A DNA stretch of 64,000 nucleotides from Arthrobacter sp. StoSoilB5. Lineage in GTDB: Bacteria > Actinomycetota > Actinomycetes > Actinomycetales > Micrococcaceae. How positions within the stretch are numbered: position 1 is the first letter of the stretch; each line of letters opens with the position of its first letter. A program made the position numbers and the translations under genes. The notes under the pieces are model-generated. The model searched no databases. It was not told where the DNA came from and saw only the letters and a list, made by a program, of their open reading frames with translations. Shown here one piece after another: positions 8,319 through 28,012 of the stretch. Location of the stretch: NCBI RefSeq assembly GCF_019977235.1, contig NZ_AP024646.1:1302001-1366000 (forward strand), read 5' to 3'.

Positions 8319-9413
8319 ATGGGTATTTTTCGGCGCGTCATTTTGCCGGTTGCCTGGTTATTGGTTTTCGCAATAATTGCGGTGGCTTTGGTCAAGATCG
8401 CTTTCGTGGACGGCCTCAAACCATCTGCTTCCCAGCCGGCGCCCTTGGCGCAAGTGGACATTCCGGTGGTCCCGGCCACGCGCGCTACGGTCACCAATAC
8501 TGTGGAAATCAAGGGAACCGTCCAAAGCGACACAGCTGAGGTCATACGGTCCACGTCTGCGGGCAAGGTCATCAAGGTATTTGTCGAACAGGGTGCCACG
8601 GTGGCCAAGGGCGATGCCCTCTTCCAGGTCAAGGCCGAGCGCGCAGTGACATCAGCGCAGCCATCCAAGGACGGAATGTCCTCGGCGTCCAAGCCGGTTT
8701 ATGACTACTTCGACATCCTTGCCCCCAGCGGCGGTACCCTGCAGTCCTTGACCACGCTGATCGACCAGCAAGTGGGCGTCGGGGAAAGCGTGGGCAAGAT
8801 CGACCCCGGCACCTACACGGTGGCCGGTTCGGTGACCGCTGCCCAGCAGTACCGCCTGCTCGGAAAGCCCGGCCCAGCGGAGATCTCATTGGTGGGTGGA
8901 CCGGCGCCGTTCCAGTGCACCGAAGTGACACTCAAGAACAACGCGTCCGACGACGGCGGCAGTGCCTCGGGCGGTTTGGCTTCCACTGGCGGAGGTGCTG
9001 GCATGGGTGTGGGCGGCGCGATCGCTGGACCCGGGGGCGGTTCTGCCACGCCACCGGACGCGGGTGGCACACCCACGGGAACGCTTAGCTGCGCAATCCC
9101 GGCTGGGCACGAGGTCTTTGCCGGACTTGGCGCGACCATGACCGTTAGTGCCGGCGTCGCCGCCGATGTTGTGACCGTGCCATTGACGTCGGTGAAAGGC
9201 AGCGTGAAGGACGGGATCGTCTGGCTCGCTGGCGCAACCGGAGGGGCGCCGGAGGAGCGCAAGGTCCAGTTGGGGCTGAACGATGGCTCCGTGGTTGAAG
9301 TGGTCTCAGGACTGGCCGAAGGCGAGCAGGTGTTGGAGTTCGTACCCGGTGCTCCGGCTGCCCCGGACCCCATGATGGGGCCGGGACAAATCGCCTACGC
9401 TCCGGCGGGCTGA
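8319..9413 (+). CDS. HlyD/MacA-like membrane-anchored adaptor of an ABC transporter
   Basis: A single N-terminal membrane anchor (about residues 5-27) leads into an extracytoplasmic adaptor of 364 aa. It carries a lipoyl-like half motif (AGKVIKVFVEQGATVAKGDALFQVK) and a beta-barrel region near the C-terminus (LGLNDGSVVEVVSGLAEGEQV). A Gly/Ser/Pro-rich stretch of about 45 residues is inserted between two cysteines (FQCTEV and LSCAIP). The start ATG 8319 has GGAG six bases upstream. The following ATPase starts 5 bp downstream and the permease overlaps that, so the three form one MacAB-like module, probably for peptide or drug efflux or envelope maintenance. Confidence 0.8.
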   Translation: MGIFRRVILPVAWLLVFAIIAVALVKIAFVDGLKPSASQPAPLAQVDIPVVPATRATVTNTVEIKGTVQSDTAEVIRSTSAGKVIKVFVEQGATVAKGDALFQVKAERAVTSAQPSKDGMSSASKPVYDYFDILAPSGGTLQSLTTLIDQQVGVGESVGKIDPGTYTVAGSVTAAQQYRLLGKPGPAEISLVGGPAPFQCTEVTLKNNASDDGGSASGGLASTGGGAGMGVGGAIAGPGGGSATPPDAGGTPTGTLSCAIPAGHEVFAGLGATMTVSAGVAADVVTVPLTSVKGSVKDGIVWLAGATGGAPEERKVQLGLNDGSVVEVVSGLAEGEQVLEFVPGAPAAPDPMMGPGQIAYAPAG

Positions 9414-9418
9414 AGCGC

Positions 9419-10165
9419 GTGACAGGGACAGCAGAAGTAGTAGAAGGCACCAGGGAAACCCTCGTCAGCCTCCGTTCGGTAACCCGTTCCGTGACGCTGC
9501 CGGACGAGCAGCAACTGCACATCCTCCGAGGCGTCGATCTTGAGGTTCAAAGCGGTGACCACACGGCCATAGTGGGCCGTTCAGGGTGCGGAAAATCAAC
9601 GTTGCTCAACCTCTTGGGACTCCTGGATGTGCCCACGTCCGGTGAGCTGGAATTCCTCGGACAATCTGCGGACCGGTTGAGCAGCAACGCCCGCGCCCGC
9701 CTGCGCGGTTCCACAGTTGGCTTCGTGTTCCAGCAGTTCAACCTGCTCCCGGGCCGTAGTGCCCTGGACAACGTCATCACACCGCTTTTCTATGCCAAGG
9801 GCAGGGAATTTTGGCGCCGCCGCGAACTGGCGATGGACATGCTGGACCGCGTTGGATTGGCCGCCCGCGCCAACACCATGCCAAACATGTTGTCCGGCGG
9901 TGAGCAACAGCGAGTGGCGATCGCCCGTGCGCTGATCCGTAAGCCGAGGCTCATCCTTGCCGATGAACCAACGGGCGCACTGGACGTCGAAACCGGGCAG
10001 GCCGTCATGGCCTTGCTGGACTCTGTGGCCACTGAAACCGCGGCCGCACTGGTGACCATCACGCACGATACCAACGTGGCGGCATTGGCACGTGCGTGCT
10101 ATCGACTGGACTCGGGCGTGCTCACCCCGCTGGCAGTTGCCAAGACAGCAGGAGTAAGCGTATGA
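9419..10165 (+). CDS. ABC transporter ATP-binding protein, MacB/LolD type
   Basis: Energises the module with the adaptor before it and the permease after it. All ABC signatures are present in its 248 aa: Walker A GRSGCGKST, Q-loop FVFQQFNLLPGRS, signature LSGGEQQRVAIARAL and Walker B LILADEPTGALD. The FQQFNLLP Q-loop and the ADEPTGALD form are typical of the LolD/MacB class. The start is GTG at 9419, five bases after the adaptor stop. The stop overlaps the permease start (ATGA), which suggests translational coupling. Confidence 0.92.
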   Translation: MTGTAEVVEGTRETLVSLRSVTRSVTLPDEQQLHILRGVDLEVQSGDHTAIVGRSGCGKSTLLNLLGLLDVPTSGELEFLGQSADRLSSNARARLRGSTVGFVFQQFNLLPGRSALDNVITPLFYAKGREFWRRRELAMDMLDRVGLAARANTMPNMLSGGEQQRVAIARALIRKPRLILADEPTGALDVETGQAVMALLDSVATETAAALVTITHDTNVAALARACYRLDSGVLTPLAVAKTAGVSV

Positions 10166-11343
10166 CCGGCTTCATGTCCACGCTGGTGGAAGCGTGGCAG
10201 GAACTCCGCATCAACAAGGTGCGTATCCTACTGGCCCTCCTTGGAGTCGCCTTGTCTGTTTCTGCGCTGACATCCGTGGTGGGCCTCGGCAGCCTGGTAC
10301 GCGAGGGGATTAAAGTGCAGTCCGAACGCGATGGAGGCCGCGTAGCAACGTTGACGTTGAGCGTCAACGGCCCGTCCGCCCCCGACGCCGAAAAACTGGA
10401 GAAGGCCTACGCAGGAATCCAGCAGCGTTACGGCATCACCACGTCGGCCCATGTGGGCCGCACCCAGGCAGGCTTCCAGTTTCCCCGCGGAGTGACCGCC
10501 GTGAACATGACCATAGTGGACATCGGGTACGGCACCATCCACCGCGTGCCCCTCTCGCAAGGAACGTGGTTCGCTGCCGACGACGACCAAAGGTTCGCAC
10601 CCGCCGTCGTGGTCTCCGAAGCCTTCTACAACCAGGCGGGCAGGCCCAATCTGGCCACCGATCCCACCGTCAGCATCCCAGGTGACCAGCCGGCAACGGC
10701 GGTGATTATCGGCGTCGTTCCCGATACCTGGCCGGACGCTCCTCCGGCCGCGTTCATCCTCACCAAAGCCGCCGCAATGACGGGGATGAAACCTGACATG
10801 TCCGAGTTCAAACTCTGGGTGGGGGAGGAACAGGCCGCTGCACTGACCGCCGCTATCTCTGCGGACCTGCAGGGCCAGTTCCCGGGATACTACGCCCAAG
10901 CCCAGCGTGTCGACTTCGCCGCCTACGGTGATCCGCTGGGACCGGCCCAGTGGATTGTGGGCGGCGTAGCCGGGCTGGTGCTCCTGCTCGGTGCGGTGGG
11001 AATGCTCAACATCTCCATGGTCACCGTTCGCTACAGGGTAAGGGAGATCGGCATCCGCCGCAGTTTCGGCGCCACCTCGGGCAGGATCTTCTTCGGCGTC
11101 ATGATGGAATCCGTAGTAGCCACGGCGGTTGCTGGAATCGCAGGCGTCATGCTGGCCGTTGCCGTGGTGAAGAACCCCTGGATCGAGTCAAAGGTAGCGC
11201 CCGGACTCATCGAATACCCGTCCTTTCCCATCGACGCCGCACTGCTGGGCTTTGGCGCGGCTGTCTTGGTGGGCGCACTCGCCGGAGCCATCCCTGCGCT
11301 CGTGGCGGTGCGCGTCAAGGTTATCGATGCGATCCGCTTTTGA
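10162..11343 (+). CDS. FtsX/MacB-type ABC permease
   Basis: The product is 393 aa with one N-terminal transmembrane helix (RILLALLGVALSVSAL), a large extracytoplasmic MacB-like domain (about residues 45-260) and three C-terminal helices. It includes the FtsX pattern VRYRVREIGIRRSFGATSGRI. The start ATG 10162 overlaps the ATPase stop and follows AGGAG. Its last 23 bases overlap the 3' end of the opposite-strand ATPase gene. Members move lipids or peptides to the outside or act mechanically with the adaptor; the substrate is not inferable. Confidence 0.88.
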   Translation: MTGFMSTLVEAWQELRINKVRILLALLGVALSVSALTSVVGLGSLVREGIKVQSERDGGRVATLTLSVNGPSAPDAEKLEKAYAGIQQRYGITTSAHVGRTQAGFQFPRGVTAVNMTIVDIGYGTIHRVPLSQGTWFAADDDQRFAPAVVVSEAFYNQAGRPNLATDPTVSIPGDQPATAVIIGVVPDTWPDAPPAAFILTKAAAMTGMKPDMSEFKLWVGEEQAAALTAAISADLQGQFPGYYAQAQRVDFAAYGDPLGPAQWIVGGVAGLVLLLGAVGMLNISMVTVRYRVREIGIRRSFGATSGRIFFGVMMESVVATAVAGIAGVMLAVAVVKNPWIESKVAPGLIEYPSFPIDAALLGFGAAVLVGALAGAIPALVAVRVKVIDAIRF

Positions 11344-12013
11344 TCTCCTCTGTGAGCCGGCCCTGCTGAAGGCGGAAGCAGCGTCCCGTTTTCTGCGCCA
11401 GGCTGCGGTCGTGGGTGACAACCAGGATGGTGGTGTTGTGGTCCCGGCTCAGTGAGCTCAAAAGTTCGATGATGTGCTCGCCGGTCTGCTCATCCAGGTT
11501 TCCCGTGGGCTCATCGGCAAGGATCAGCTTGGGCTCGTTGGCCAGTGCCCGTGCGATCGCGACGCGTTGCTGCTCGCCACCTGACAAACGGTTGGTCCGG
11601 CGGGACTGCTTCTCCGGATCCAACTGCACCTGCTCCAGCAGTTCCTTGGCCCGCTTAAGCCGTGCTGATTTGCGGACGCCTGCGAACTCCATGGGCAGCA
11701 TGACGTTGTCCACGGCGCTGAGGTTCGGGATCAAGTTGAACTGTTGGAACACGAAACCGATATCACGACGGCGGTACTCGGTCAGTTTGCTGTCCGGCAA
11801 TCCCGCCAGGCTGACGCCATCCACGACGACGTCTCCGCTGGTCGGTTTGTCCAGCGCGCCCAGAAGGGACAACAGCGTGCTTTTGCCGCTGCCGCTCTTG
11901 CCGACGATCGACGCCAGAGATCCCTTCTCCAGCTGGAAGCTGACACCGTTGACAGGCTTGATGGTCCTGTCGCCGGACTTGAACTGACGGACCAGGTCCT
12001 TGACTTCAATCAC
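11321..12013 (-). CDS. ABC transporter ATP-binding protein, second MacB-like module
   Basis: A 230-residue ATPase with Walker A GKSGSGKST, Q-loop FVFQQFNLIPNLS, signature LSGGEQQRVAIARAL and Walker B LILADEPTGNLD, again the LolD/MacB class. It follows its permease by 2 bp on the minus strand, so the pair is an operon with permease first. The reading frame ends inside the last codons of the convergent permease gene on the plus strand. Protein-level similarity to the first module's ATPase is limited to the conserved motifs plus the LADEPTG region. Confidence 0.92.
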   Translation of the reverse strand: MIEVKDLVRQFKSGDRTIKPVNGVSFQLEKGSLASIVGKSGSGKSTLLSLLGALDKPTSGDVVVDGVSLAGLPDSKLTEYRRRDIGFVFQQFNLIPNLSAVDNVMLPMEFAGVRKSARLKRAKELLEQVQLDPEKQSRRTNRLSGGEQQRVAIARALANEPKLILADEPTGNLDEQTGEHIIELLSSLSRDHNTTILVVTHDRSLAQKTGRCFRLQQGRLTEEIKSGSHR

Positions 12014-12015
12014 GG

Positions 12016-13473
12016 CTATTCTCCTCGGAGTACTTCGATGGGACGGATACGGGCGGTCAGCAAGGCAGGGACCAACGCGCCGATGATGGCTACCGCGAAG
12101 ACCGCGGCGATGCCTGCAGCGATGACGCCGGGGGAGGCGCTCGCCGTGACGGACGTGAGCAATTGGGAGGCCCCGCCGAACGGACCGCCTTGGCCCCCGG
12201 GGAAGCCGCCCCCGGGGAAGCCGCCGCCCGGGATGGTGCCATTTGGTACGGCCCCCGCCAGCCCGGCGCCTCGCTGGGTGGTGGTTGCCGCCGTCGTGCT
12301 GGTGTTCGAACTGATCAGTGCGGACGCGATACCGCCGCTGGCAAACGATGCAATAGCTGCACCCACCACGCTGCCCAAGGCCACCAGGACCAGCGATTCA
12401 AGGACGAACTGCAGGCCAATAGTGCGGTTGCGGGCACCGATAGCCTTCAGGACGCCAATTTCGCGGCGGCGCTCGCGGACCAGCATCACCATGATCAGAA
12501 GGATGATGAGTCCTGCGGTAGCGAGTGCGGCAATGAACGCGACCAGGGAGATGTTCTTGACGCTGTCCAGGGAGCTGACCGCGGTTTCGAGGTTGCGTTG
12601 GCCTTGGGTGACGTCCGCCTTGTCAGTTCCCAACGCCGACTGAACTGCCGTCTTGGTGCTATCGACGTTCTGCATGCTGTTGACCGTGACGATCATGGTG
12701 GAGAGTTCGTCAGGAGTTCCAGCCAGCGCTTGGGCTTCTGGAAGGGTGAGATAGACGGCGTTGTTTCCGAAGGCGGTTCCGGCGTCGAAGATGCCAGCCA
12801 CGGTGAACGTCTTGTCCTGGATGGTGAAGGTGGAGCCCACGGTCAGGCTGTTCTTCTCCGCCAGCGATGTTCCAACCAGCGCGTTCGCCGTTGCCGTGGT
12901 GTAGTCGCCCAGGCCGGTGCCGCTAGTGATGTTCAAGGCCTTGCCGGTGCTGTCAACCTCGGCGCCGATGCCAGTTGCGGTAATCGGCAGGGCGCGTACC
13001 CGCTGGGTGGTGCTGCCCGTGCTTCCAGTGTTCCCGGTGGAGCCGTTACGGTTGCCCAGCGTACCGGCGTCGATGGCCGCCGTCAGGTTGGTGGTGACAG
13101 TGGCCTGCTGCCCGCCGGGACCAAAACCGCCTGGAGCGGCCTGCTGTGTGGTGTTTGTTTCTGTGGTTGCAGTCTGAAGGCGGAGCGCCTTGGTGCCCAC
13201 CACGGACGTGACGTTGCTGACCGAAGCTGCCGTCTGCGCTTGAGTGGTCGTGAGCGGTTCGCCGCCGCCCTCAAAGCCCTGCCCACCGGCAGGATTAACG
13301 GTGAGGGTAGTGCCCACGGAAGCATTGAGCTCCTGGACCTTGGCACCCACGGCCTGGTTGGCAACAAGCATGGCCAATGCCAGGCCGATAGCTACGGCCA
13401 GCACAGCGACCACCGCGGCCGTTCTGATTTTGTTGCGGAAGGCATTGCCTACGCTTCGGGCAAGGACGCTCAC
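12016..13473 (-). CDS. FtsX/MacB-type ABC permease with glycine-rich insertion
   Basis: The product is 485 aa: an N-terminal helix (TAAVVAVLAVAIGLALAML), a MacB-like external domain and three C-terminal helices, with VRERRREIGVLKAIGARNR as the FtsX cytoplasmic signature. A Gly/Phe/Pro-rich run (GGGFPGGGFPGG and following, encoded around 12175-12235) sits between the last two helices, likely outside the membrane. Thr/Asn/Gly-rich stretches also mark the external domain. It is first in a two-gene operon with the ATPase. The external domain resembles no substrate-defining family that I recognise. Confidence 0.85.
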   Translation of the reverse strand: MSVLARSVGNAFRNKIRTAAVVAVLAVAIGLALAMLVANQAVGAKVQELNASVGTTLTVNPAGGQGFEGGGEPLTTTQAQTAASVSNVTSVVGTKALRLQTATTETNTTQQAAPGGFGPGGQQATVTTNLTAAIDAGTLGNRNGSTGNTGSTGSTTQRVRALPITATGIGAEVDSTGKALNITSGTGLGDYTTATANALVGTSLAEKNSLTVGSTFTIQDKTFTVAGIFDAGTAFGNNAVYLTLPEAQALAGTPDELSTMIVTVNSMQNVDSTKTAVQSALGTDKADVTQGQRNLETAVSSLDSVKNISLVAFIAALATAGLIILLIMVMLVRERRREIGVLKAIGARNRTIGLQFVLESLVLVALGSVVGAAIASFASGGIASALISSNTSTTAATTTQRGAGLAGAVPNGTIPGGGFPGGGFPGGQGGPFGGASQLLTSVTASASPGVIAAGIAAVFAVAIIGALVPALLTARIRPIEVLRGE

Positions 13474-13637
13474 GTTTCTCCTTTGGACCTGCTGAATGCT
13501 GCAGGCCGCGGGGTCGCGGGCTGCAGGTCCAACACTGCTGAGCGCTGCTGTGCGGGAAGCCTGCCGAAGCTATGCGTGGGCTGTGAAAGGCTAATGATCC
13601 AGCAGAATCTCCATTGCCTGGGAATTCTGGAAGCCCC

Positions 13638-13668
13638 TTGACACGCCGTCACGTCAGGCAGGCATAAT
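13638..13668 (+). promoter_or_regulatory. Promoter of the pectate lyase gene
   Basis: A consensus -35 TTGACA (13638-13643) is followed by a -10-like CATAAT (13663-13668) at a 19-base spacing. The operator begins 12 bases after the -10, about where transcription would start. Confidence 0.6.
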
Positions 13669-13679
13669 TGGATTGCCCC

Positions 13680-13695
13680 GAGAAAGCGTTTTCTC
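13680..13695. promoter_or_regulatory. LacI-family operator before the pectate lyase gene
   Basis: GAGAAAGCGTTTTCTC is a 16-bp near-perfect palindrome with the central CG typical of LacI/CcpA-type sites. It overlaps the expected transcription start, so it would block transcription when bound. No LacI-type regulator is encoded in this window. Confidence 0.65.
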
Positions 13696-13782
13696 AAACT
13701 CCGGGCAAGGTTTCCCTAGTTAGTCCAATTGCCCATTCCCTACAAGGCATGTGCTCTATTTGGCATGCCGGAAAACAGGCCA

Positions 13783-15267
13783 ATGACGTCCACATCACGC
13801 TCCAATCCCACCGCGCGGCGTTCGGCAGGAATAGCTGCCGCCGCCTGCATCGCCCTGGCCGCTTGCCTGGCATCCGCTCCGGCAGGCAGCGCAGGTTCAA
13901 CTGACCTGCATGGGGCACCCACCGTTTCAGTCAATGACTCCGCCCCAACAGGCTGGGCGTCCGTTGGCCCGGGGACCAACGGTGGCGCCGGTGCCGCGCC
14001 GGAGAACATCCACGTGGTCAGCACCTTGGCCGAGCTCAAGGCCGCCACCTTGAACAATGGCGACCCCAAGGCGCCCAAGATCATCTACATTCGCGGGACC
14101 ATCAACGGCAACGAGTCCGCAGACGGGAAGATCCTGGGGGAGCAGGACTACGCCCCCGGATACGACATCCAGAAGTACATGAGCTGTTTCCAGGACAACG
14201 GCAAGATCTGGAGTGACCAAACGTTCCCGTATTGCAAGCAGATGAGGCAGCTTCGCCAACAGGGGAGCAACGCCATGAAGCGGCAGATCGAGGTGAACCT
14301 TCCCAGCAACACCACACTTCTCGGCCTGGACGAGGATTCAGGACTGGTGGGTGCCAACATCATCATGAACGTGGCCAGCAATGTGGTGATCCGGAACCTA
14401 AGCATTGAATCACCCGTGGACTGGTTCACTTCCTGGTCCCCGGACGACGGTGATGGTGCTTGGAACGCCCGTTTCGACTGCTTGTCCGCAGTGACCTCGG
14501 ACCACATCTGGATCGACCATGTACTCCTGACGGACGGCCGATTCCCGGACAGCGAAGCTCCAAAGGACTTCAAGAACGAGCCCGTGATCAGGCATGATGG
14601 CCTGCTGGACCTGAAGGACGGCACGGACTTCGTCACGGTCTCCAACAGCCAGCTCCGGGACCACGACAAGACAAGCCTCCTCGGATCCGGCGATGAGCAT
14701 GTAGATAAGGACGGCGGGAAGCTACGGGTCAGCTTCATCTCCAACCTGTTCGAAAACACGCAACAGCGCGGTCCCCGGGTCCGGTTCGGACAGGTCCATG
14801 TCCTGAACAACTACTTCGTGGCCAGCACCGAGGATCCGGACTACCCCATGATCAGCGCAGCCCAGGGCGGCACCAGCTACTTCCTGGGTGCGGGGTATGA
14901 GTCCAGGATCTTCTCCGAATACAACGCCTTCGACTACACGGGTGCCGGCGCGGATCAGTCCATTACAGTCACGAGCTATAACGGCAACATGTTCAGCGAC
15001 ACCGGTTCGTGGTTCAACGGCGAGCCGGTCGATCTTGAGGCCGTGGCCCAAGCTTCCTTCGAGGACCGCAAGGCCCCGGCGGTAGCTGCCGCGGTTGACT
15101 CCGGCACTGCGGTACCTGAATGGGCCCAGCGGGACTTTACGTCCGACGTCGGATGGGAACCTTCGGATACGTACACGTACCGCACGCTCACATCACCGGC
15201 GGCAGTTCGCAACGCGGTACTGAACTTCTCGGGGCCAGGCGTCATCAAGGTCATCCCGGGAAAGTAG
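13783..15267 (+). CDS. Secreted pectate lyase (polysaccharide lyase family 1-like)
   Basis: Cleaves polygalacturonate by beta-elimination, outside the cell. The 494-residue protein has a twin-Arg/Ala-rich signal peptide (TARRSAGIAAAACIALAACLASAPAGS). A right-handed beta-helix follows with PL1 hallmarks: NTTLLG, VVIRNLSI, WIDHVLLTDG (the WIDH pattern), RHDGLLDLKDGTDFVTVSNSQLRDHDKTSLLG and RGPRVRFGQVHVLNNYF. The DHDK and RxPRxR elements correspond to catalytic and calcium-site regions. I start at ATG 13783, with CAGG just before it; upstream in-frame ATGs lack a site. It is monocistronic, with its own promoter and a terminator. Confidence 0.9.
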   Translation: MTSTSRSNPTARRSAGIAAAACIALAACLASAPAGSAGSTDLHGAPTVSVNDSAPTGWASVGPGTNGGAGAAPENIHVVSTLAELKAATLNNGDPKAPKIIYIRGTINGNESADGKILGEQDYAPGYDIQKYMSCFQDNGKIWSDQTFPYCKQMRQLRQQGSNAMKRQIEVNLPSNTTLLGLDEDSGLVGANIIMNVASNVVIRNLSIESPVDWFTSWSPDDGDGAWNARFDCLSAVTSDHIWIDHVLLTDGRFPDSEAPKDFKNEPVIRHDGLLDLKDGTDFVTVSNSQLRDHDKTSLLGSGDEHVDKDGGKLRVSFISNLFENTQQRGPRVRFGQVHVLNNYFVASTEDPDYPMISAAQGGTSYFLGAGYESRIFSEYNAFDYTGAGADQSITVTSYNGNMFSDTGSWFNGEPVDLEAVAQASFEDRKAPAVAAAVDSGTAVPEWAQRDFTSDVGWEPSDTYTYRTLTSPAAVRNAVLNFSGPGVIKVIPGK

Positions 15268-15309
15268 CCTCCAGTCAGGTGACACAGCGAAGCCCCGGTG
15301 GCACAGCGA

Positions 15310-15348
15310 AGCCCCGGCCCGCCTGCTGAATGCTGGCGGACCGGGGCT
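15310..15348. terminator. Terminator between pectate lyase and sugar-transport operon
   Basis: AGCCCCGGCCCGCC pairs with GGCGGACCGGGGCT (one mismatch) around an 11-nt loop. Just upstream, a segment of about 17 bp (ACAGCGAAGCCCCGG) is duplicated in tandem at 15284-15317, so two alternative 5' arms exist. Confidence 0.75.
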
Positions 15349-15373
15349 AGCTGTTAGTTGCTGCTAAACGGTG

Positions 15374-16471
15374 TTACTTGGTGATCGGGCCGAGTACCGG
15401 ATCATCGACGTAAGCCGTCTTGACGTTTGCTGCCGTCACGATCTGCGGCGGGAGCAGGTAGGCCGGAACAGTCTTGACACCGTTCTTGTAGGAATCCTTG
15501 TCATTGATTTCCAGCTGCTTGCCGGCCTGCAGGTCCTTCACCATGGTGATGGCGTGCTCAACCAGCTTGCGGGTGTCCTTGTTGATGGTGGAGTACTGCT
15601 CGCCAGCCATGATCGACTTGACGGACTCAACCTCGGAGTCCTGGCCTGTGATGACCGGTATCGGCTTTCCGGCGGCCTTGACGGAGTTCAGGATGTAGCG
15701 TGCCAAGAGGTCATTCGGGGAAAGTACGCCGTCCAGCGAGGCCGAGGTGTAGCTGCCCGCCAAGAGGGTGTCGGCACGTTTCTGCGCGTTTTCGCCCTTC
15801 CAACCCTGGGTGACAGCCTGCTCGAAGGCAGTCTGGCCGGAGAGGACCTTGAGCGTTCCGTCGTCGATCTTCGGCTTCAGGACGCTCATGGCGCCATCGA
15901 AGAAGACCTTGGCGTTGGCATCATCCGGGGAACCCGCGAAGAGTTCGATGTTGTAAGGACCGGAAGGCTTCTTGGCCTTCAATCCGTCCAGCAGGGCCTG
16001 GCCCTGCAGCACACCGACCTTGAAGTTGTCGTACGCCACGTAGTAGTCCACGTTCTCGGTGTTGAGGAGCAGACGGTCGTAAGCGATGACCGTCGCGCCG
16101 GAGTCCTTGGCCTGCTTGAGCTGGGTACCCAGCTGGGCGCCGTCGATGGCTCCAACGATGATGACCTTGACACCCTTGGTGACCATGGCGCTGATCTGGT
16201 TCTGTTGGTCGGAGACGCCGCCGTTGGCGAACTGGACGTCCGCCTTGAAGCCGGCGCCCTTGAGGCCGTCGTTGAACAGCTTCTCCGCGAGGACCCAGTT
16301 TTCACTGGTCTTCTGCGGAAGTGCGACGCCGATCAGCGAGTCCTTGGGGAACGCTTCCCCGCCAGCTGTGCTGCTGCTTGAGCCGCTGTCAGAGCGGCCG
16401 CAGGCCGTCAGCGCCAGTGCCGCGATGGCAGCGACTGCTGCTGCCTTTCCTGCTTTACCAAACATTCGCAT
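15374..16471 (-). CDS. Monosaccharide ABC transporter substrate-binding lipoprotein (ChvE/XylF-like)
   Basis: A 365-residue extracellular sugar receptor. The signal peptide ends in a lipobox (ALALTAC, Cys about residue 22), so it is membrane-tethered. The Peripla_BP_4 pattern is clear: IGVALPQKTSENWVLAEK near the start, IIVGAIDGAQLGTQLKQAKDSGATVIAYDRLL in the middle, and GVLSPNDLLARYILNSVK and PVITGQDSE later. That pattern and its two partners fit the ChvE-GguAB (MmsAB) family for glucose, galactose, arabinose or xylose. It is third in the operon, after ATPase and permease. The in-frame region upstream of 16471 overlaps the permease gene and is not used. Confidence 0.9.
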   Translation of the reverse strand: MRMFGKAGKAAAVAAIAALALTACGRSDSGSSSSTAGGEAFPKDSLIGVALPQKTSENWVLAEKLFNDGLKGAGFKADVQFANGGVSDQQNQISAMVTKGVKVIIVGAIDGAQLGTQLKQAKDSGATVIAYDRLLLNTENVDYYVAYDNFKVGVLQGQALLDGLKAKKPSGPYNIELFAGSPDDANAKVFFDGAMSVLKPKIDDGTLKVLSGQTAFEQAVTQGWKGENAQKRADTLLAGSYTSASLDGVLSPNDLLARYILNSVKAAGKPIPVITGQDSEVESVKSIMAGEQYSTINKDTRKLVEHAITMVKDLQAGKQLEINDKDSYKNGVKTVPAYLLPPQIVTAANVKTAYVDDPVLGPITK

Positions 16472-20713: not shown

Positions 20714-21033
20714 GACAAGAAGATTGCCCCAAAAGCAACCTTGTAGTCAAGAAGTGAACACAAGGTGTCAAGCATTCCCGACATTCTCCAACGCAATGGG
20801 GGGCCGCTCCTAGTGGTTGCGGGGCCTGGTTTGCGTGGCAAATGCCGGGAATGGGACGCAGAGCGGGCCTCGCAAGGGAAGGTGGGATCCCGCGTTCCGT
20901 GCAATGCGTCCTGCTTGTTGCATTCGCGGGTCCAAATGCCCCGATGCACGTGCCGCACCCCGTGCCTACGCTGGAATCAAGAAATAATCCTGCGCCATCA
21001 AAGCCAGGATCGGCTGAAACCAAGGTGGTAAAG
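20714..21033. other. Intergenic region between ROK gene and C-N hydrolase gene
   Basis: About 320 bp without a convincing gene. It holds the ROK gene promoter and operator at its left end. The frame of the hydrolase stays open through most of it, but the encoded residues do not look like the nitrilase fold and there is a good ribosome binding site only at 21022. I see no clear promoter for the hydrolase. Confidence 0.6.
20740..20764. promoter_or_regulatory. ROK operator in front of the ROK gene
   Basis: The second copy of the 25-bp inverted repeat (CTTG arms, GTCAAG core). On the minus strand it covers a -35-like TTGACT, and a -10-like CAATCT follows 18 bases later, so binding would be autorepressive. 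It differs from the first copy at positions 6, 14, 15 and 22. Confidence 0.75.
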
Positions 21034-21837
21034 ATGCTGCTATCCGTCCTGCAGGCCAACGCTTCCGTCCTGGACGTTGAGGCCAACCTGCGCACAATCG
21101 ACGACGCCGCCCGGCGCGCCGCACAGGCGGGGGCCGGGCTGCTCCTAACGCCGGAGCTCTTCCCGGTGGGATACGCACCGCTGCGGCTTCACGCCGAATT
21201 GGACCCGGCAACACTTCCCGGCATCCGCGGACGCCTCGCTGGCATTGCCCGCCGGCACAATATTGGACTCGTTTACAGCCTTCCGGCGCAGGCTGCCGAG
21301 CACGGCGGCTGGCACATCACTGCTACCCTCGTGGACGCCAACGGCAAGGAACTCCTCAACTATGCCAAGGTCCACCTCTTTGGCGCGGAGGAGCGCAAGG
21401 CGTTCGTCGGCGCTCAAGAACCTCCCGCCGTCGTGGATTTCAACGGGATCCGCACATCGCTGCTGATTTGCTACGACGTTGAGTTCCCGGAGGCAGTCCG
21501 GGCCGCAGCTACGCGCGGGGCCGAACTCCTGCTGGTCCCAACTGCTCTGTCCATGGGCTTCGACAACGTGCCACAGGTGCTCATCCGTGCCCGCGCCGTG
21601 GAGAGCCAGCTCAATGTGGCCTACGCCAACCACAGCGGGCACGAGGACATCTACAACTTCCTGGGCGGCAGCGTTGTCGCAGGCCCCGATGGCTCGTTGC
21701 TCGCAGCGGCAGGGGAGTCGGCGGCGCTCCTGTTCGCGGAAGTGGGCACGGAAACAGTGAAAGCGGCACGCGACGAAGTCCCTTATCTGCGCGAGCGGCG
21801 CCCGGAGCTTTACCGGGAGTGGGAGGCCGGCGCCTAA
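21034..21837 (+). CDS. Carbon-nitrogen hydrolase, 5-aminovaleramidase (DavA)-like amidase
   Basis: Predicted to hydrolyse a short amide to its acid plus ammonia. The 267-residue nitrilase fold has the catalytic triad Glu41 (TPELFP), Lys112 (LNYAKVHLFG) and Cys146 (LLICYDVEFPE). The residues around Lys and Cys, and the later RARAVESQ and YANHSG, closely resemble Pseudomonas DavA as I remember it. A DavB-like monooxygenase, which would make the amide substrate, lies 4.5 kb downstream. The start ATG 21034 follows AAGGTGG. Its stop overlaps the PucR-type gene by 4 bp, tail to tail. Other omega-amidase or beta-ureidopropionase-like roles are possible. Confidence 0.75.
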   Translation: MLLSVLQANASVLDVEANLRTIDDAARRAAQAGAGLLLTPELFPVGYAPLRLHAELDPATLPGIRGRLAGIARRHNIGLVYSLPAQAAEHGGWHITATLVDANGKELLNYAKVHLFGAEERKAFVGAQEPPAVVDFNGIRTSLLICYDVEFPEAVRAAATRGAELLLVPTALSMGFDNVPQVLIRARAVESQLNVAYANHSGHEDIYNFLGGSVVAGPDGSLLAAAGESAALLFAEVGTETVKAARDEVPYLRERRPELYREWEAGA

Positions 21838-23459
21838 GCACCCCTTCCGTCGGGCCCGGACAATCCGGCAACCAACTCATCCGCGTACTGCAGCGCGATC
21901 CATAGTTCTGCACGGACCTGTGCCTGGTTGAGGTCCTTGTCGAGCAGCTCACCGAGGACGCCTATTTGCCGGCGGACGCTGTTGCGGTGCAGGCCCAGCA
22001 GCTTGGCGGAACCGTCCCAGCTGCCGTTTTCGCTGAGCCACCCGCGCAGCACCGACAGGAGGGAGTCGCGGCGGTCAGATTCCAAGGACAACACCGGGGC
22101 AAGGAGGCGCTCAGCCAGCATGGTCCCTGCCTCGCGTCCCAGAAGACCAGTCACAGACCACTGCACTTCGTCCACGCGGACACTCTTTCCGCTCGACAAC
22201 ACCCGCCCGCGCAGCGAACTTACCCGCTGATACGCCGCGGCAAGCCCGGTGAGTTCGGTGGGCTCGCCGATCGCCAGCCTCCATCCAAGCTTTTCGACGT
22301 CGGCAAGCAGCGCGTCGTCCACCTTCAAACGGGTGATGGCCGCGAAGCCGTAGTCGGTTATTTCCACAAGCTTGGTATCGAACAACCTCCGCCACTGCAA
22401 CAGCTCGCGGACCGGGCCGTCGCCGGCAGGCCAGTCCGGGGAGTCCGCCTTGATGCCCTGCACAACCCGCATTTGGCCGGAGCGGGTGGAGGAGAGGCTT
22501 TGCGCCAGCAGGTCCTTGAGCCCGTTGATGTGCTTGGTGGGGCCTGTGGTCAGCGTGTCCGGATGCAGGAGCAGCGCCGTGGCCAGCTGGCTCGGAGCCA
22601 GGGATCCGCTGGTCCGTTGCCGCACCAGTAGCTCCAGCAAACCCACCGCCGACTGCACCACGTTGTTCTGGGCTGGCGTCAGCGGGGCGTCCGAGCCAAG
22701 AATCAGCGCCCCGAGGTTGGCATCCTTGGTGCTGCGCAGAGGATGACCGAACACCAGGGCGGAACCAGGCTGCTCGAAACCATCCATCTCCACGCGCGGT
22801 CCGCTGCCTGTCAGCAGCCGCTCCAGCAGCGGCGCCAGCAGGGAATGCTCGACGCCGGTGCTGCCGCCGGCATTGTGCCCGCGCGCCCGCACCCGTCCGT
22901 CCGCCCCTACCAGCAGCGCCCACACGGGCACCCGCTGGACCAGGGCTGCCAGCAATTCGTGTTCCGGCCTGGGGGAGAGGACTGCCCGCATGAGTTGGCG
23001 GTTGGTTTCGGCCAGCTGTCGGAACACCCGGGCGTTGTCCGATTCCAGGAGCTGGGAGAATTCCAGGCCAACCGCGGCGAAGGGAAGGGACTCAGGTACC
23101 TCGAAAAGGGTGAGGTTGTGCCTCCGGCAAGCGTCGAGGAGTACGTCGGGGACGGCGTCGAAATAGGGCCTGATGCCAAATCCGAGCGCCGCCACCTTCG
23201 CATCCACCAACCGACGCACGTAGGCGTCCACGTTGGCCGCCGAGCCGCCTTCCCCAAGGAAAGGCAGCCCGGCGGTGAGCAGGAACTCGCCCTCGGGAAG
23301 ATACGGCGTGGGGTCTTCCAACTCGCTGGGTTCCACCCACCGGAGCAGCGAGGCGCCGCTGCCGCCGTCGTGAAGCATTTTCAGCTCGGGCGGCAGCTGC
23401 TCCAGGAACTGCTCCAGCGTGACAAAACTCAGGCGGGCGGTGGCGGGCTCAGGCAACAT
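21834..23459 (-). CDS. PucR-family transcriptional regulator
   Basis: A 541-residue regulator. The N-terminal PucR/purine-catabolism domain (about 10-130) contains GFGIRPYFDAVPDVLLDACRR, the middle is GGDEF-like or ligand-sensing, and the C-terminal HTH_30 domain is seen as WDGSAKLLGLHRNSVRRQIGVL. The start ATG overlaps the end of the racemase gene by 11 bp, preceded by AGGA, so the two are co-transcribed and probably coupled. PucR proteins usually activate nitrogen or amino-acid catabolic genes nearby; the permease-monooxygenase pair and the amidase are the likely targets. Confidence 0.88.
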   Translation of the reverse strand: MLPEPATARLSFVTLEQFLEQLPPELKMLHDGGSGASLLRWVEPSELEDPTPYLPEGEFLLTAGLPFLGEGGSAANVDAYVRRLVDAKVAALGFGIRPYFDAVPDVLLDACRRHNLTLFEVPESLPFAAVGLEFSQLLESDNARVFRQLAETNRQLMRAVLSPRPEHELLAALVQRVPVWALLVGADGRVRARGHNAGGSTGVEHSLLAPLLERLLTGSGPRVEMDGFEQPGSALVFGHPLRSTKDANLGALILGSDAPLTPAQNNVVQSAVGLLELLVRQRTSGSLAPSQLATALLLHPDTLTTGPTKHINGLKDLLAQSLSSTRSGQMRVVQGIKADSPDWPAGDGPVRELLQWRRLFDTKLVEITDYGFAAITRLKVDDALLADVEKLGWRLAIGEPTELTGLAAAYQRVSSLRGRVLSSGKSVRVDEVQWSVTGLLGREAGTMLAERLLAPVLSLESDRRDSLLSVLRGWLSENGSWDGSAKLLGLHRNSVRRQIGVLGELLDKDLNQAQVRAELWIALQYADELVAGLSGPDGRGA

Positions 23460-24687
23460 TGTCCTGCCCGGCAGTTGCCGGCTCCTGGTAGTCAGGGCAC
23501 TCGTAGGCGGCGTCCCCAGCGGCATAGACGCGTGACAGCCGCGGCGCGATCCTGTTGATGATCTCATCCCCATGGCTGCCGATCGCGGCGCCCCAATCGT
23601 CGGCGCTCGCCGCACCGGTGGCGGGGTCGCCGAACAACACGGCAGTATCGCCGACATCGATCCCGGTGGCGTCCGGTCCCAGGTCCACCATGAATTGGTC
23701 CATGCAGACCTTGCCGATGACCGGGACGCTTCGCCCTCCGATGTTCACTACCGAGCGGCCACTGATGCCTTTCGGGATGCCGTCCGCATAGCCGAGGGGA
23801 ATGAGCCCCAGGTATCGGGGTTCATAGGTGATGGCTTGGTGCTCGTAGCTGACGCCCGTACCCGCGGGGACTTTCTTGACCATTACCAGCGGCGCCGTGA
23901 CGCTGAGGGCGGGCCTCAATCCGAAGTCGGTCGGATTGAGGTGGTCTGCTGGCGCGAGGCCGTAGATTGCCAGTCCCGCCCGGACCATGTCGAAGTGGAA
24001 TTCCGGCCGGTCCAGGATGTTGGCCGAGCTGGAAACGTGCCGGAGTTGAGGGTTCAGTCCGGCCTCGCGCGCCTCGCGGACGGCGTCCTCGAACTCGGCG
24101 ACGGCGCTGGCGTTGCCAGGATGCGCGGGTACGTCTGCCCACGCCAAATGGGTCCAGATGCCGCGTACCAGGACGGTGCCGTCCACTTCTGCTTGGCGGG
24201 CATGCGCTACGAGCTCAGCCCAATCCTCCTGTCGCGCCCCGCCGCGGCTGAGTCCGCTGTCAAGCTCAAGATGCACGACGGCGGGACGGCCCAGGCGTTC
24301 GGCGATACCTGCCAGCACCTGCAGCTGGTGGACGCTGCCGAGGGACACATCGATGTCGTTTTCCAGGGCTTCCAGGATGGTGTCGCTCGTCTGGGATGCC
24401 AGATACAGCCACGAAAGGATCGGCTCAGTGATGCCGGCTTTGCGGAGTGCGGTGGCTTCCGTGAGCTGCGCGGTTCCGAGCCAGTCGGCTCCTGAAGCGA
24501 CGGCCGTGCGGGCGACTTCCACGAGGCCATGACCGTAGGCGTTGCCCTTCACCACGGCCATGAAGAAGGGTGCCTTGGTCCGGTTCTTCAGGGCCTTGAT
24601 GTTGTCTGAAATGGCGGACAGGTCCACTTTGACCTGGCCGGAGAGGGCCAGCGAACCGCCCTCTTGGTACTGTGCAATACGTCTCAT
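23449..24687 (-). CDS. alr: Alanine racemase-family PLP enzyme
   Basis: Interconverts L- and D-amino acids, alanine by default. The 412-residue protein has the PLP lysine Lys47 in AVVKGNAYGHG and the catalytic tyrosine Tyr281 in GVSYEHQ. It also has the LSRGG and MVRAGLAIYG stretches and a C-terminal CMDQFMVDLG. The gene is not beside tsaE/tsaB as the cell-wall alr often is. Instead it is divergent from an amino-acid permease and monooxygenase and co-transcribed with their likely regulator. It could therefore be a catabolic or broad-range racemase. The start ATG lies 8 bases after a -10-like TATAGT, suggesting no or almost no leader. Confidence 0.85.
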   Translation of the reverse strand: MRRIAQYQEGGSLALSGQVKVDLSAISDNIKALKNRTKAPFFMAVVKGNAYGHGLVEVARTAVASGADWLGTAQLTEATALRKAGITEPILSWLYLASQTSDTILEALENDIDVSLGSVHQLQVLAGIAERLGRPAVVHLELDSGLSRGGARQEDWAELVAHARQAEVDGTVLVRGIWTHLAWADVPAHPGNASAVAEFEDAVREAREAGLNPQLRHVSSSANILDRPEFHFDMVRAGLAIYGLAPADHLNPTDFGLRPALSVTAPLVMVKKVPAGTGVSYEHQAITYEPRYLGLIPLGYADGIPKGISGRSVVNIGGRSVPVIGKVCMDQFMVDLGPDATGIDVGDTAVLFGDPATGAASADDWGAAIGSHGDEIINRIAPRLSRVYAAGDAAYECPDYQEPATAGQDNVA

Positions 24688-24785
24688 GGTTGAACACTAT
24701 AGGTCATTTTGCACCATTGTGAGAGGTGGCTCACATGCCAGTCTTGTGGAGGGGAAATCGAAACTACTTTGAAGGGACGTCAAGG

Positions 24786-26312
24786 GTGACTGTGCCTGTG
24801 AACACTCAAAACTCAACGGCGACGAGCATGGCCAGGCCAAGCCTCGGTGCCCAACTCCTGCGCCGCAAGCCGATCGGGCAGATGGCCAGCGAGGCCGGAA
24901 CCGGCGAAGGCGGCACCCCGCTGGTACGCAGCTTCGGCGTCCTGCAGTTGACCATGATCAGCGTCGGAGCAACACTGGGCACCGGCATCCTGGTGATCCT
25001 TGGGGAGTCCGTGCCGCTGGCAGGTCCGGCCATCTGGATCTCCTTCGTGATCGCTGGTTTGGCTGCGCTTTTCTCGGCCGTGTCCTACGCGGAAATGGCC
25101 GGGCTGGTCCCGGTGGCAGGTTCCAGCTACTCCTACTCTTACGCCACCATGGGCGAGGGCATGGCCTGGATCTGCGGCTGGTGCCTGGTGCTGGAATACG
25201 CGGTCTCCGTGGCAGCTGTAGCTGTAGGCGCGGGCCAGTACGTCAACGAGACCTTGGCTGCGTTTGGACAGGTCCTGCCCGAGGCCATGAGCCAGCCCCC
25301 GGGCGATGGTGGGGTGGTGAATATTCCCGCCATGGTGATCGTGGTTCTTGCCATGATCCTGCTGGTACGGGGCGCCCGTGAAAGTGCATGGATCAACACC
25401 GCGATCGTCATCATCAAGGTGGGCATCCTGATCTTCTTCTGCGCAGTGGCTTTCACAGCCTTCAACGCCGGCAACTTCGAGCCCCTCATGCCCATGGGCG
25501 CAGCCGGTGTCTCTGCTGCAGCGTCAAGCGTGTTCTTCTCCTACATCGGGTTCGATGCCGCCTCCACCGCTGGCGAGGAAGCCAGGAACCCCAAGCGGGA
25601 CCTGCCCCGCGCCATCATGCTCTCCATGGTGATTGTCACCAGCATCTATGTCCTGGTTTCCGTTGCCGCCATCGGTGCCCGTCCCTGGGGCTGGTTCGAT
25701 GGCACGGAAGCTGCCCTGGTCCAGATTCTGCACGAGATCACCGGCCAGCCCTGGATCGCGCTGGTCTTCTCTGCCGGTGCAGTGCTTGCCATCGCCAGCA
25801 TCGTGCTGACGGTGCTTTACGGCCAGACCCGCATCCTGCTATCGATGTCCCGCGACGGCATGGTGCCCAAGGTCTTTGGCCGCGTCTCCCGCCGCACCGG
25901 CACGCCAGTTGCCGGAACCCTGATAGTAGGTACCGCCGTCGCACTCACCGCCGGCTTGGTCCCGCTGGGTGCGTTGGCAGACGCCACCAGCATCGGCACG
26001 CTCTTTGCCTTCGCGCTGGTCAACGTCGCCGTGATCTATCTGCGGCGGAACCGCCCTGACCTTGACCGCAGCTTCAAGGTCCCCCTGTACCCGATCACTC
26101 CGATCCTGGGCACGCTCATGTGTGCTTTCCTGATGCTCAACCTCGGCGCCGATACCTGGATCACCTTCGGGGTCTGGATGCTCGTGGGCATCGCCATCTA
26201 CTTCGGCTATGGACGCCGGAATTCCAAGGTAGCCGCGCTCAGCGATCAGGACTACCGTGAACTGACCACCACCAGGGCCGTGAGCCCGGAACCCGTGAAG
26301 GCCGCAAACTGA
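24786..26312 (+). CDS. APC-superfamily amino acid permease
   Basis: A 508-residue transporter with about twelve membrane segments. The APC start motif is FGVLQLTMISVGATLGTGILVILG, and later YIGFDAASTAGEEARNPKRDLPRAI marks the cationic-amino-acid-transporter-like (CAT) branch, which suits lysine or arginine. The start GTG 24786 follows GAAGGG; an earlier ATG at 24726 lacks a site. Its stop overlaps the monooxygenase ATG by one base (TGATG), so the two are coupled: uptake followed by oxidation of the same amino acid is the simplest reading. Confidence 0.85.
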   Translation: MTVPVNTQNSTATSMARPSLGAQLLRRKPIGQMASEAGTGEGGTPLVRSFGVLQLTMISVGATLGTGILVILGESVPLAGPAIWISFVIAGLAALFSAVSYAEMAGLVPVAGSSYSYSYATMGEGMAWICGWCLVLEYAVSVAAVAVGAGQYVNETLAAFGQVLPEAMSQPPGDGGVVNIPAMVIVVLAMILLVRGARESAWINTAIVIIKVGILIFFCAVAFTAFNAGNFEPLMPMGAAGVSAAASSVFFSYIGFDAASTAGEEARNPKRDLPRAIMLSMVIVTSIYVLVSVAAIGARPWGWFDGTEAALVQILHEITGQPWIALVFSAGAVLAIASIVLTVLYGQTRILLSMSRDGMVPKVFGRVSRRTGTPVAGTLIVGTAVALTAGLVPLGALADATSIGTLFAFALVNVAVIYLRRNRPDLDRSFKVPLYPITPILGTLMCAFLMLNLGADTWITFGVWMLVGIAIYFGYGRRNSKVAALSDQDYRELTTTRAVSPEPVKAAN

Positions 26313-28012
26313 TGACCATCGCCACCGAACTACCCCTCGTTGAAGCCCCTGCCGGCGAGGCCGCTGAAGCCCCCATCACCATGCTGAACCCGGACTTCCC
26401 GTTCAGCTACGACCATTACCTCGCGCACCCGGACGGGCTCGGCGTCCTCCCGGAAGACCGCTACGGCACGGAAGTCGCCGTCATCGGTGCAGGCCTTTCC
26501 GGGCTCGTCACGGCCTATGAGCTGATGAAGCTCGGCCTCAAGCCTGTCATCTACGAGGCCGACCAGATCGGTGGCCGGCTGAGGACCGCCAGCTTCCCAT
26601 CCGCTCCCGGTGTAGTGGCAGACCTTGGTGGCATGCGCTTCCCGGTTTCCGGCAAGGCCTTCTACCACTACGTGGACCTGCTTGGGCTGGAAACGCATGA
26701 CTTCCCCAACCCGATGGCCCCGGCGACGTCCAGCACGGTGATCGAACTCGCCGGCAAGAAGCACTACGCCACCACGGCGGACGAGCTACCGGAATTCTTC
26801 CGCGAAGTGGCCGACGCCTGGAAGGCTGCCATCAACGATGGCGCTGCTTTCGCGCAAATGCAGGAAGCCATCAAGGCCCGTGATACCAAACGGATCAAGG
26901 AACTCTGGAACGCCCTCCTGCCCGAACTGGACGAGCAGACGTTCTACGGATTCATCGCAGCCAGCAAGTCCTTCAAGGAGGCCGGCTTCGCCCACCGCGA
27001 AGCCTTCGGCCAGGTGGGCTTCGGCACCGGTGGCTGGGACACCGATTTCCCCAACTCCATCCTGGAGATCCTCCGGGTTGTCTACACCGACGCAGACGAC
27101 CAGCACCGGCTCATAGCGGGAGGAGCGCAAAGGCTCCCCGAGGCATTGTGGAACCACGCGCCGTCGGACCTTAAGTACTGGCCGCAAGGCACCTCGCTGG
27201 CGTCGCTGCACTCTGGCTCGCCGCGCGGAGCCGTGGACAATATTCGCCGGGCGGATAACGGGGACCTGGTAGTCCGCGAAAACTGGGGACGCGAGGCCAC
27301 CTACGAAGCGGTGGTGACCACGTGCCAGTCGTGGCTGCTGTCCACGCGGATCCACACCGAGGAGGCGCTGTTCCCGGCCGAGCTGTGGACGGCGATCGAG
27401 CGCTCGCACTACATGCAGTCGTCCAAGACGTTCGTGATGGTGGATCGGCCGTTCTGGAAGGACATCGATCCCGAGACCGGGCGGGAAGTCCTGTCCATGA
27501 CTCTCACCGACCGCCTCAACCGGGCCACATACTTGCTCGACGACGGCCCTGACAAGCCCGCCGTCATCCTCCTGTCCTATACATGGAACGATGACGCGCT
27601 GAAATGGCTTGCCCTCACTGCTGAGGAACGCGTCAAGCTCATGTTGCATTCGTTGGAGCAGATCTACCCGGGCGTGGACATCGCCAGCCACATCGTGGGG
27701 CAGCCGATCACCGTGTCCTGGGAAGCAGACCCCAACTTCATGGGTGCCTTCAAAGCCAACCTGCCGGGGCATTACCGGTACCAGCAGCGGCTCTTCACAC
27801 ATTTCAAGCAAGATGAGCTGCCGGAGAGCCAGCGTGGCATCTTCCTCGCCGGCGACGACGTTTCCTTCACCGCTGGCTGGGCCGAGGGCGCCGTGACCAC
27901 GGGCCTGAACGCCGTGTGGGGTGTGGTGAACCACTTGGGTGGATCCTCTGTTGCAAGCAACCCGGGTCCGGGCGACCTGCTGGACGAGTTCGGCCCGATC
28001 AGCCTGGACTAG
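26312..28012 (+). CDS. Flavin amino-acid 2-monooxygenase, lysine 2-monooxygenase (DavB)-like
   Basis: Predicted to convert an L-amino acid with O2 into the shortened amide, CO2 and water. The 566-residue protein has the FAD-binding motif VAVIGAGLSGLVTAYELM (about residue 55), GGMRFPVSGKAFYHYVD, YMQSSKTFVMVDRPFWKD and the C-terminal FAD segment GIFLAGDDVSFTAGWAEGAV. From memory these stretches and the PGPGDLLDEFGPISLD tail match Pseudomonas DavB more closely than IaaM, but both belong to the same family. Tryptophan, phenylalanine or arginine remain possible substrates. It is second in an operon with the permease, and a terminator follows. Confidence 0.8.
   Translation: MTIATELPLVEAPAGEAAEAPITMLNPDFPFSYDHYLAHPDGLGVLPEDRYGTEVAVIGAGLSGLVTAYELMKLGLKPVIYEADQIGGRLRTASFPSAPGVVADLGGMRFPVSGKAFYHYVDLLGLETHDFPNPMAPATSSTVIELAGKKHYATTADELPEFFREVADAWKAAINDGAAFAQMQEAIKARDTKRIKELWNALLPELDEQTFYGFIAASKSFKEAGFAHREAFGQVGFGTGGWDTDFPNSILEILRVVYTDADDQHRLIAGGAQRLPEALWNHAPSDLKYWPQGTSLASLHSGSPRGAVDNIRRADNGDLVVRENWGREATYEAVVTTCQSWLLSTRIHTEEALFPAELWTAIERSHYMQSSKTFVMVDRPFWKDIDPETGREVLSMTLTDRLNRATYLLDDGPDKPAVILLSYTWNDDALKWLALTAEERVKLMLHSLEQIYPGVDIASHIVGQPITVSWEADPNFMGAFKANLPGHYRYQQRLFTHFKQDELPESQRGIFLAGDDVSFTAGWAEGAVTTGLNAVWGVVNHLGGSSVASNPGPGDLLDEFGPISLD

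Follow-up and report, generated by a model that had tools for sequence, protein, structure and literature searches.

A probable arginine 2-monooxygenase module with a PucR regulator and a second racemase in Arthrobacter sp. StoSoilB5

The window analysed here is a 64,000-nucleotide stretch of the single-contig 5.30-Mb genome of Arthrobacter sp. StoSoilB5 (bases 1,302,001-1,366,000); the monooxygenase points to Paenarthrobacter and Arthrobacter as the closest named relatives of this genome. It carries a locus of five genes encoding a C-N hydrolase (AMD), a PucR-family regulator, a second alanine-racemase-family enzyme (ALR2), an amino-acid permease (PERM) and an L-amino-acid 2-monooxygenase (MOX). 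Judging from gene order, family membership, residue changes, a shared motif and the gene neighbourhoods of relatives, this locus is probably an arginine 2-monooxygenase module, converting arginine through 4-guanidinobutyramide to 4-guanidinobutyrate, with the ureohydrolase and gabTD encoded elsewhere in the genome.

Arginine 2-monooxygenase has classically been studied in Streptomyces and other actinobacteria. In the pathway proposed here, PERM would import a basic amino acid, MOX would oxidatively decarboxylate L-arginine to 4-guanidinobutyramide, and AMD would release ammonia from this amide to give 4-guanidinobutyrate. An unlinked guanidinobutyrase-type ureohydrolase (UREO2) would then remove urea to yield 4-aminobutyrate (GABA), which would pass to succinate via gabT and gabD. 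One bipartite operator would place all three transcription units under PucR, and ALR2 would racemise arginine, or a different basic amino acid, allowing both isomers to enter. An earlier sequence-only reading had suggested a 2-monooxygenase/amidase route in two steps, served by a dedicated permease and regulator, and the sequence supports this. That reading put lysine first, by the lysine 2-monooxygenase/5-aminovaleramidase (DavBA) route, whereas active-site residues, genome content and the gene surroundings of relatives speak for arginine, named there as an alternative together with tryptophan.

Substrate of the monooxygenase

One genome per species was scanned for MOX, which gave 196 relatives; the best 80 loci serve here as the Arthrobacter-group loci, all named Arthrobacter, Paenarthrobacter or Pseudarthrobacter except for one named Micrococcaceae. 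The best solved match of MOX is the L-amino acid oxidase/monooxygenase (L-AAO/MOG) 3we0 (810 bits), the next being tryptophan 2-monooxygenase (198 bits). Active-site positions (102, 235, 238, 254, 258, 416 and 515) are numbered after 3we0, the window MOX numbers being 7 higher (254 = A261, 258 = H265, 515 = G522). According to the available part of PMC5832979, Asp238 of L-AAO/MOG holds the cationic side chain, and relatives of this enzyme widen the pocket via Trp235 to Phe and Ala515 to Gly. Window MOX retains R109, W242, D245, Y423, W425, F480 and W523 relative to 3we0; Asp238, Trp235, Arg102, Tyr416 and the aromatic cage are retained in it and in all 80 loci.

The changes C254A, Q258H and A515G relative to 3we0 occur in all 81 Arthrobacter-group rows (window plus 80 loci), so that the lysine-enzyme letters C254 and Q258/A515 are found in none of them, the reference being 3we0 and not Pseudomonas putida DavB. 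In the class search, Gly515 is present in 35/35 loci and Asp238 in all except the distant paralogue L135, while Ala254 is missing from L112 and L135 and His258 from L136 and L135; two order-search rows, L170 and L172, combine Gln258 with Gly515. Q258/A515 is present in 11 rows, namely 3we0, nine alphaproteobacterial plasmid rows and the Micrococcaceae row L154, with C, L or F at position 254. These rows form a separate clade in a MOX tree made by a quick method with a distant root. In this tree they are nested among arginine-type rows, as though specificity for lysine had evolved from an arginine enzyme.

Ureohydrolase linkage was counted in 51 fetched MOX loci outside the genus, some of the stretches being short. 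In 14 of these loci, from five family groups, MOX has a ureohydrolase gene within 11 kb, and in ten of the 14 the distance is below 2 kb from start to start. An agmatinase-annotated ureohydrolase, a permease, a C-N hydrolase and a monooxygenase are consecutive on a plasmid of Tsukamurella tyrosinosolvens, and all 15 linked ureohydrolases (14 loci plus Tsukamurella) are nearer to UREO2 of the StoSoilB5 genome than to UREO1. Locus L108 carries a gabT over cut-off, two genes of the succinate-semialdehyde dehydrogenase type and a thiamine diphosphate (ThDP) enzyme resembling 5-guanidino-2-oxopentanoate decarboxylase (below cut-off), and L171 carries homologues of UREO2 and of this ThDP enzyme. None of the nine alphaproteobacterial plasmid stretches is annotated with a ureohydrolase, and two also lack a C-N hydrolase.

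The lysine-type locus L154 (C/Q/A; 8085-15375) presents another neighbourhood, with a C-N hydrolase, MOX, a gabT over cut-off and a LysR regulator. Its acyl-CoA dehydrogenase has glutaryl-CoA dehydrogenase as best solved match (508 bits), with NCBIfam matches (FadE-type first) all below cut-off, and its CoA-transferase has succinate-glutarate CoA-transferase as best NCBIfam model, also below cut-off; the whole looks like a lysine/glutarate gene set. The contrast between the arginine-type neighbourhoods and this one is the strongest argument for arginine, with a single locus on the lysine side. The TsaD, LysR, AMP-binding and PucR labels of neighbour genes were confirmed with Pfam.

Candidates for the remaining steps of the arginine route are present in the genome, though unlinked to the locus. 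It encodes one MOX only at E ≤ 1e-60 and three ureohydrolases, one HutG-like over cut-off and two agmatinase-type, of which none reaches an arginase cut-off; no arginine deiminase was found in this genome. For both UREO2 and the Tsukamurella ureohydrolase, the best solved match is guanidinobutyrase 3nio. A genome search for davTD-type genes, which the sequence-only reading had called for, found a gabT over cut-off with a gabD-like neighbour at ~4.09 Mb; this pair was set aside as a discriminator because either substrate could use both. The lysine marker CsiD, absent from the StoSoilB5 genome, is hardly informative and carries little weight, being nearly absent from the whole class sample (1 weak below-cut-off match among 296 genomes).

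The second racemase

ALR2 scores 285 bits with TIGR00492, for which the cut-off is 168, and matches the Pfam Ala_racemase N and C domains above their cut-offs. It is a second copy in the genome, 40.7% identical to the housekeeping Alr, which has the higher Alr score and is encoded a few genes from tsaD; the view of ALR2 as distinct from the housekeeping copy is thereby supported and a role as the essential Alr was rejected. Within the best 120 database rows, 94 form an ALR2 block of 69-95% identity, the next row, fragments aside, standing at 57% and those after it at ~50%. The pyridoxal phosphate (PLP) lysine K47, the catalytic tyrosine Y281, R148 and M329-D330 are kept in 94/94 of these rows, the roles being those that such residues have in alanine racemases.

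The canonical K, N, A, G and Y at positions 141, 220, 223, 282 and 374 are replaced by E, S, N, E and D in ALR2, while canonical rows have K, N, A and Y in 23/23 and G in 22/23. E282 directly follows the catalytic Tyr281. ALR2 gives 90-110 bits with solved Bsr/lysine racemases against 320 bits with the alanine racemase 1vfh, and is thus not closest to Bsr. The altered residues suggest a changed specificity. As the alignment places Glu282 and Asp374 near the substrate, these acidic residues may bind a guanidinium group, and a D-/L-arginine racemase is a plausible identity for ALR2. A reference title in the available part of PMC11271267 gives the D-arginase of Arthrobacter sp. KUJ 8602 as identical with guanidinobutyrase, which ties D-arginine to guanidinobutyrase in this genus.

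Among the 80 Arthrobacter-group loci, 33 have a complete ALR2; L012 and L047 are undecidable, and in L062 the gene is reduced to a 16% remnant of its 5' part before pucR (~8002-8315), a snapshot of loss. L156, from another genus of the family, also has ALR2 at this place in the locus. Mapped on the MOX tree (quick method, 28/84 inner branches drawn open), its distribution requires at least 5 changes over 85 scored rows. Given L156, the L062 remnant and the tree, an origin as recent foreign DNA is unsupported; the gene was probably gained early and lost repeatedly, and its presence in L036 and L039 could reflect regains.

A broader interpretation is put forward tentatively and is less probable than the arginine module itself. 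The locus may be a regulon for the utilisation of both D- and L-arginine, in which ALR2 would be a basic-amino-acid racemase derived from the canonical Alr family and not from the Bsr/lysine-racemase family, with Glu282, beside the catalytic tyrosine, and Asp374, in the C-terminal domain, binding guanidinium. The actinobacterial family of MOX, large and misnamed, would then consist of catabolic arginine 2-monooxygenases, with the lysine enzymes arising from among them. Source names for the MOX-type enzyme vary, comprising tryptophan 2-monooxygenase, lysine 2-monooxygenase and amine oxidase.

Locus layout and regulation

All five open reading frames are present in the arrangement described by the sequence-only reading and match the named families above Pfam cut-offs (Table 1). 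The overlapping ends are also as described: AMD and pucR are convergent with 4 bp in common, the ALR2 stop falls within the pucR start, and base 26312 is common to PERM and MOX. The nitrilase-superfamily triad of AMD (Glu41, Lys112, Cys146) was verified by a residue check, and the best PDB match of this enzyme is the amidase 5jqn/3hkx (233 bits). The ATG nearest the conserved part (23459) is most likely the start of pucR, in preference to the longest-frame start at 23657, and PERM begins at a GTG (24786) instead of the longest-frame 24726, ATG or GTG being conserved there in a DNA alignment of 18 rows. The label of PERM as a CAT-branch permease is reasonable but weak, as 0/25 NCBIfam models shown reach their cut-off.

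Table 1. Features of the locus and the unlinked ureohydrolase (window positions unless marked)
Feature	Position	Strand	Evidence or remark
Operator-like bipartite motif TGCAATGCGTC-N18-GGTC	20900..20932	+	Upstream of AMD
C-N hydrolase (AMD), DavA-like; proposed 4-guanidinobutyramide amidase	21034..21837	+	PF00795 CN_hydrolase, 138 bits
PucR-family regulator	21834..23459	-	PF07905 65.6 bits and PF13556 (HTH_30) 46.9 bits, both over cut-offs
Second, divergent alanine-racemase-family enzyme (ALR2); candidate basic-amino-acid (arginine) racemase	23449..24687	-	TIGR00492, 285 bits
Operator-like bipartite motif TGCAATACGTC-N18-GGTC	24673..24705	+	In ALR2/PERM gap; same motif and spacing as 20900-20932
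Inverted repeat TGTGAG-N6-CTCACA	24718..24735		Divergent promoter region; partly kept in 18 aligned rows
APC-family amino-acid permease (PERM)	24786..26312	+	PF13520 (AA_permease_2) 200 bits, PF13906 (AA_permease_C) 63 bits
Flavin adenine dinucleotide (FAD) L-amino-acid 2-monooxygenase (MOX); proposed arginine 2-monooxygenase	26312..28012	+	Pfam Amino_oxidase; 810 bits to 3we0
Guanidinobutyrase-type ureohydrolase (UREO2)	genome 1,070,419-1,071,534		Not linked to locus

The order AMD(+)-pucR(-)-PERM(+)-MOX(+) recurs in 76/80 Arthrobacter-group loci, with AMD 3.3-4.7 kb from pucR in 9 of the 76; in the remaining L012, L023, L024 and L047, which are short or early-ending, AMD is absent or partial. 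This recurrence is not due to chance. Genes for a gamma carbonic anhydrase, purU, glyA and folD downstream of MOX are mostly conserved as well, indicating that conservation of the core is partly ordinary vertical synteny.

A consensus, TGCAWTRCGTC-N18-GGTC, is common to the regions upstream of AMD and upstream of ALR2/PERM, which gives substance to the proposal of three transcription units, two of whose promoter regions thus carry an operator-like motif. Apart from these two sites, the 5.3-Mb genome has no perfect match, a count that expresses rarity and is no independent test because the motif was read off the same two sites; one more site is found at one mismatch, and a backward-read control gives one match. 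At ≤ 2 mismatches, 22 of the 80 loci have at least two sites, 55 have one and 3 have none, so the copy before AMD is less conserved (site positions being known for 13 loci). The copy in the ALR2/PERM gap is present in rows with and without the racemase. Its first half (24673-24690) overlaps the first codons of ALR2. In several loci free of the racemase it is pucR that starts in this conserved region and has the first half of the motif as its first codons. The shared motif suggests one regulon, and PucR, by its position, is the presumed reader. No operator at ≤ 2 mismatches was found in the neighbourhoods of UREO1, UREO2 and gabT, and sigma-70 and terminator scans gave about the same yield as shuffles.

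Elsewhere in the genome, UREO2 adjoins a ThDP enzyme similar to 2-ketoarginine decarboxylase (L142, 7416-10237), and this pair could handle the oxidase by-product of MOX. A second guanidino-type locus (L141, 5814-11453) encodes a PucR regulator, UREO1, a cytosine/purine-type permease and an aldehyde dehydrogenase. Another PucR regulator (L102, 13768-15210) lies beside gabT/gabD, bringing to three the PucR proteins at guanidino/GABA-type loci of this genome.

Alternative readings and related systems

Several observations weigh against the arginine module. Neither the window nor the 80 Arthrobacter-group loci contain a ureohydrolase, gabT or gabD homologue (E ≤ 1e-10; the non-adjacency of davT and davD had been anticipated by the sequence-only reading). 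Outside the genus, no ureohydrolase is visible in the fetched stretch, short in some cases, for 37 of 51 loci, including all but one Streptomyces-like locus. The identity of UREO2 is clouded by a close second solved match, 3-guanidinopropionase, and by NCBIfam, which calls it an agmatinase over cut-off. The co-occurrence of UREO2 homologues (E ≤ 1e-70) with MOX, which itself favours arginine (42/44 class genomes with MOX and 43/252 without), is inflated by shared ancestry, a genus-level hand tally giving 7/9 against 29/105 (p 0.004). The genome has no lysine 6-aminotransferase over cut-off, so lysine may still be used via MOX; the lysine-type clade sits inside arginine-type rows in the quick tree, and switches of substrate happen. 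L-AAO/MOG itself accepts lysine, ornithine and arginine according to the available part of PMC5832979, and a specificity mixed with lysine is possible for MOX. S. lividans is described as having no arginine monooxygenase in the available part of PMC5082578. On the regulatory side, a 16-kb scan for UREO2 gave no match to the operator at ≤ 3 mismatches, and 3/100 window shuffles give at least two motif matches at ≤ 2 mismatches.

Lysine degradation by the DavBA route has in its favour that the best solved match of MOX, 3we0, is L-lysine-oxidising, that Asp238 and Trp235 are retained, that gabT/gabD-type enzymes are encoded in the genome, and that a context rule in the available part of PMC12462448 pairs the C-N hydrolase with lysine, not tryptophan, monooxygenases. 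Lysine was nevertheless dropped as first-choice substrate, and this route is judged improbable: residues 254, 258 and 515 differ in all Arthrobacter-group rows, the Q258/A515 rows stand apart as a clade, one of them (L154) has a glutarate-route neighbourhood, and lysine needs no ureohydrolase, yet one lies near MOX in 14/51 relatives. The absence of CsiD points the same way, though only as far as its near absence from the class sample allows. Somewhat less improbable, but still unlikely, is a broad basic-amino-acid monooxygenase acting on arginine, lysine, ornithine and homoarginine with no single physiological substrate, which would fit the breadth of L-AAO/MOG (lysine, ornithine and arginine in the same part of PMC5832979) and the same charge-binding aspartate in MOX; ureohydrolase-linked relatives and a separate lysine-type clade suggest divided labour instead. 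Tryptophan was rejected as substrate and remains the unlikely member of the alternatives named earlier, since the window has Asp245, which is not hydrophobic, at the Asp238 position and the partner is a C-N hydrolase.

For the racemase, a real though lesser possibility is that ALR2 is a spare alanine racemase, serving as cell-wall backup or in D-cycloserine tolerance and riding in the pucR unit. Its score well over the alanine-racemase cut-off (285 against 168 bits) and the PLP lysine and catalytic tyrosine in 94/94 rows agree with this view, but the housekeeping copy near tsaD, the replacement of five near-fixed positions and the retention of the gene's place in 33/80 Arthrobacter-group loci and one locus of another genus do not.

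Under the arginine reading, the locus combines known chemistry in a new arrangement, of which the divergent racemase is the most original part; among the few titles that literature searches on lysine and arginine racemases, 5-aminovaleramide and lysine 2-monooxygenase brought up, none is on such a locus. MOX aligns without gaps to L-AAO/MOG (AIU 813) over residues 19-565 and shares its FAD fold family, Asp238 and the alpha-group Arg102/Tyr416, but differs by C254A, Q258H and A515G and sits with PucR, a permease and often a racemase, its relatives lying near ureohydrolase genes and not davT/gcd. Tryptophan 2-monooxygenase 4iv9 belongs to the same superfamily and has the same amide-forming chemistry, but is far more distant (198 against 810 bits) and has Val247 at the Asp238 position (available part of PMC5832979).

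A precedent for this chemistry is the azalomycin (arginoketide) pathway, in which, according to the available part of PMC5082578, azalomycin-producing Streptomyces make 4-guanidinobutyrate from arginine by an arginine monooxygenase and an amide hydrolase. Set beside it by description, these are the two reactions proposed here; that pathway is biosynthetic and feeds a polyketide starter, whereas the present locus, with PucR, permease and racemase, would be catabolic. A locus of a Streptomyces-like genome (L136, 2554-19970) resembles the arginoketide pathway of that source, having a polyketide synthase, open reading frames for an AMP-binding ligase and a VinK-like acyltransferase, a ureohydrolase and a second monooxygenase, with no C-N hydrolase match; its MOX homologue has A254/G515.

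Guanidinobutyrase 3nio is the closest solved protein to UREO2, and the D-arginase/guanidinobutyrase of KUJ 8602 connects that activity with D-arginine in Arthrobacter (title in the available part of PMC11271267), but UREO2 is neither adjacent to the locus nor provided with the operator. ALR2 shares its family, PLP lysine, catalytic tyrosine and Met-Asp motif with the actinobacterial alanine racemase 1vfh and differs from it as a second copy with E141, S220, N223, E282 and D374. The organism of 1vfh is presumably Streptomyces lavendulae.

If the arginine reading is right, the two letters at 258 and 515 may suffice to tell arginine-type enzymes from lysine-type ones, the old activity of arginine 2-monooxygenase would gain a candidate catabolic gene, and metabolic models of actinobacteria would need correction. 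The locus also supplies a candidate for an arginine racemase with a new origin, as well as a candidate operator for a compact PucR regulon.

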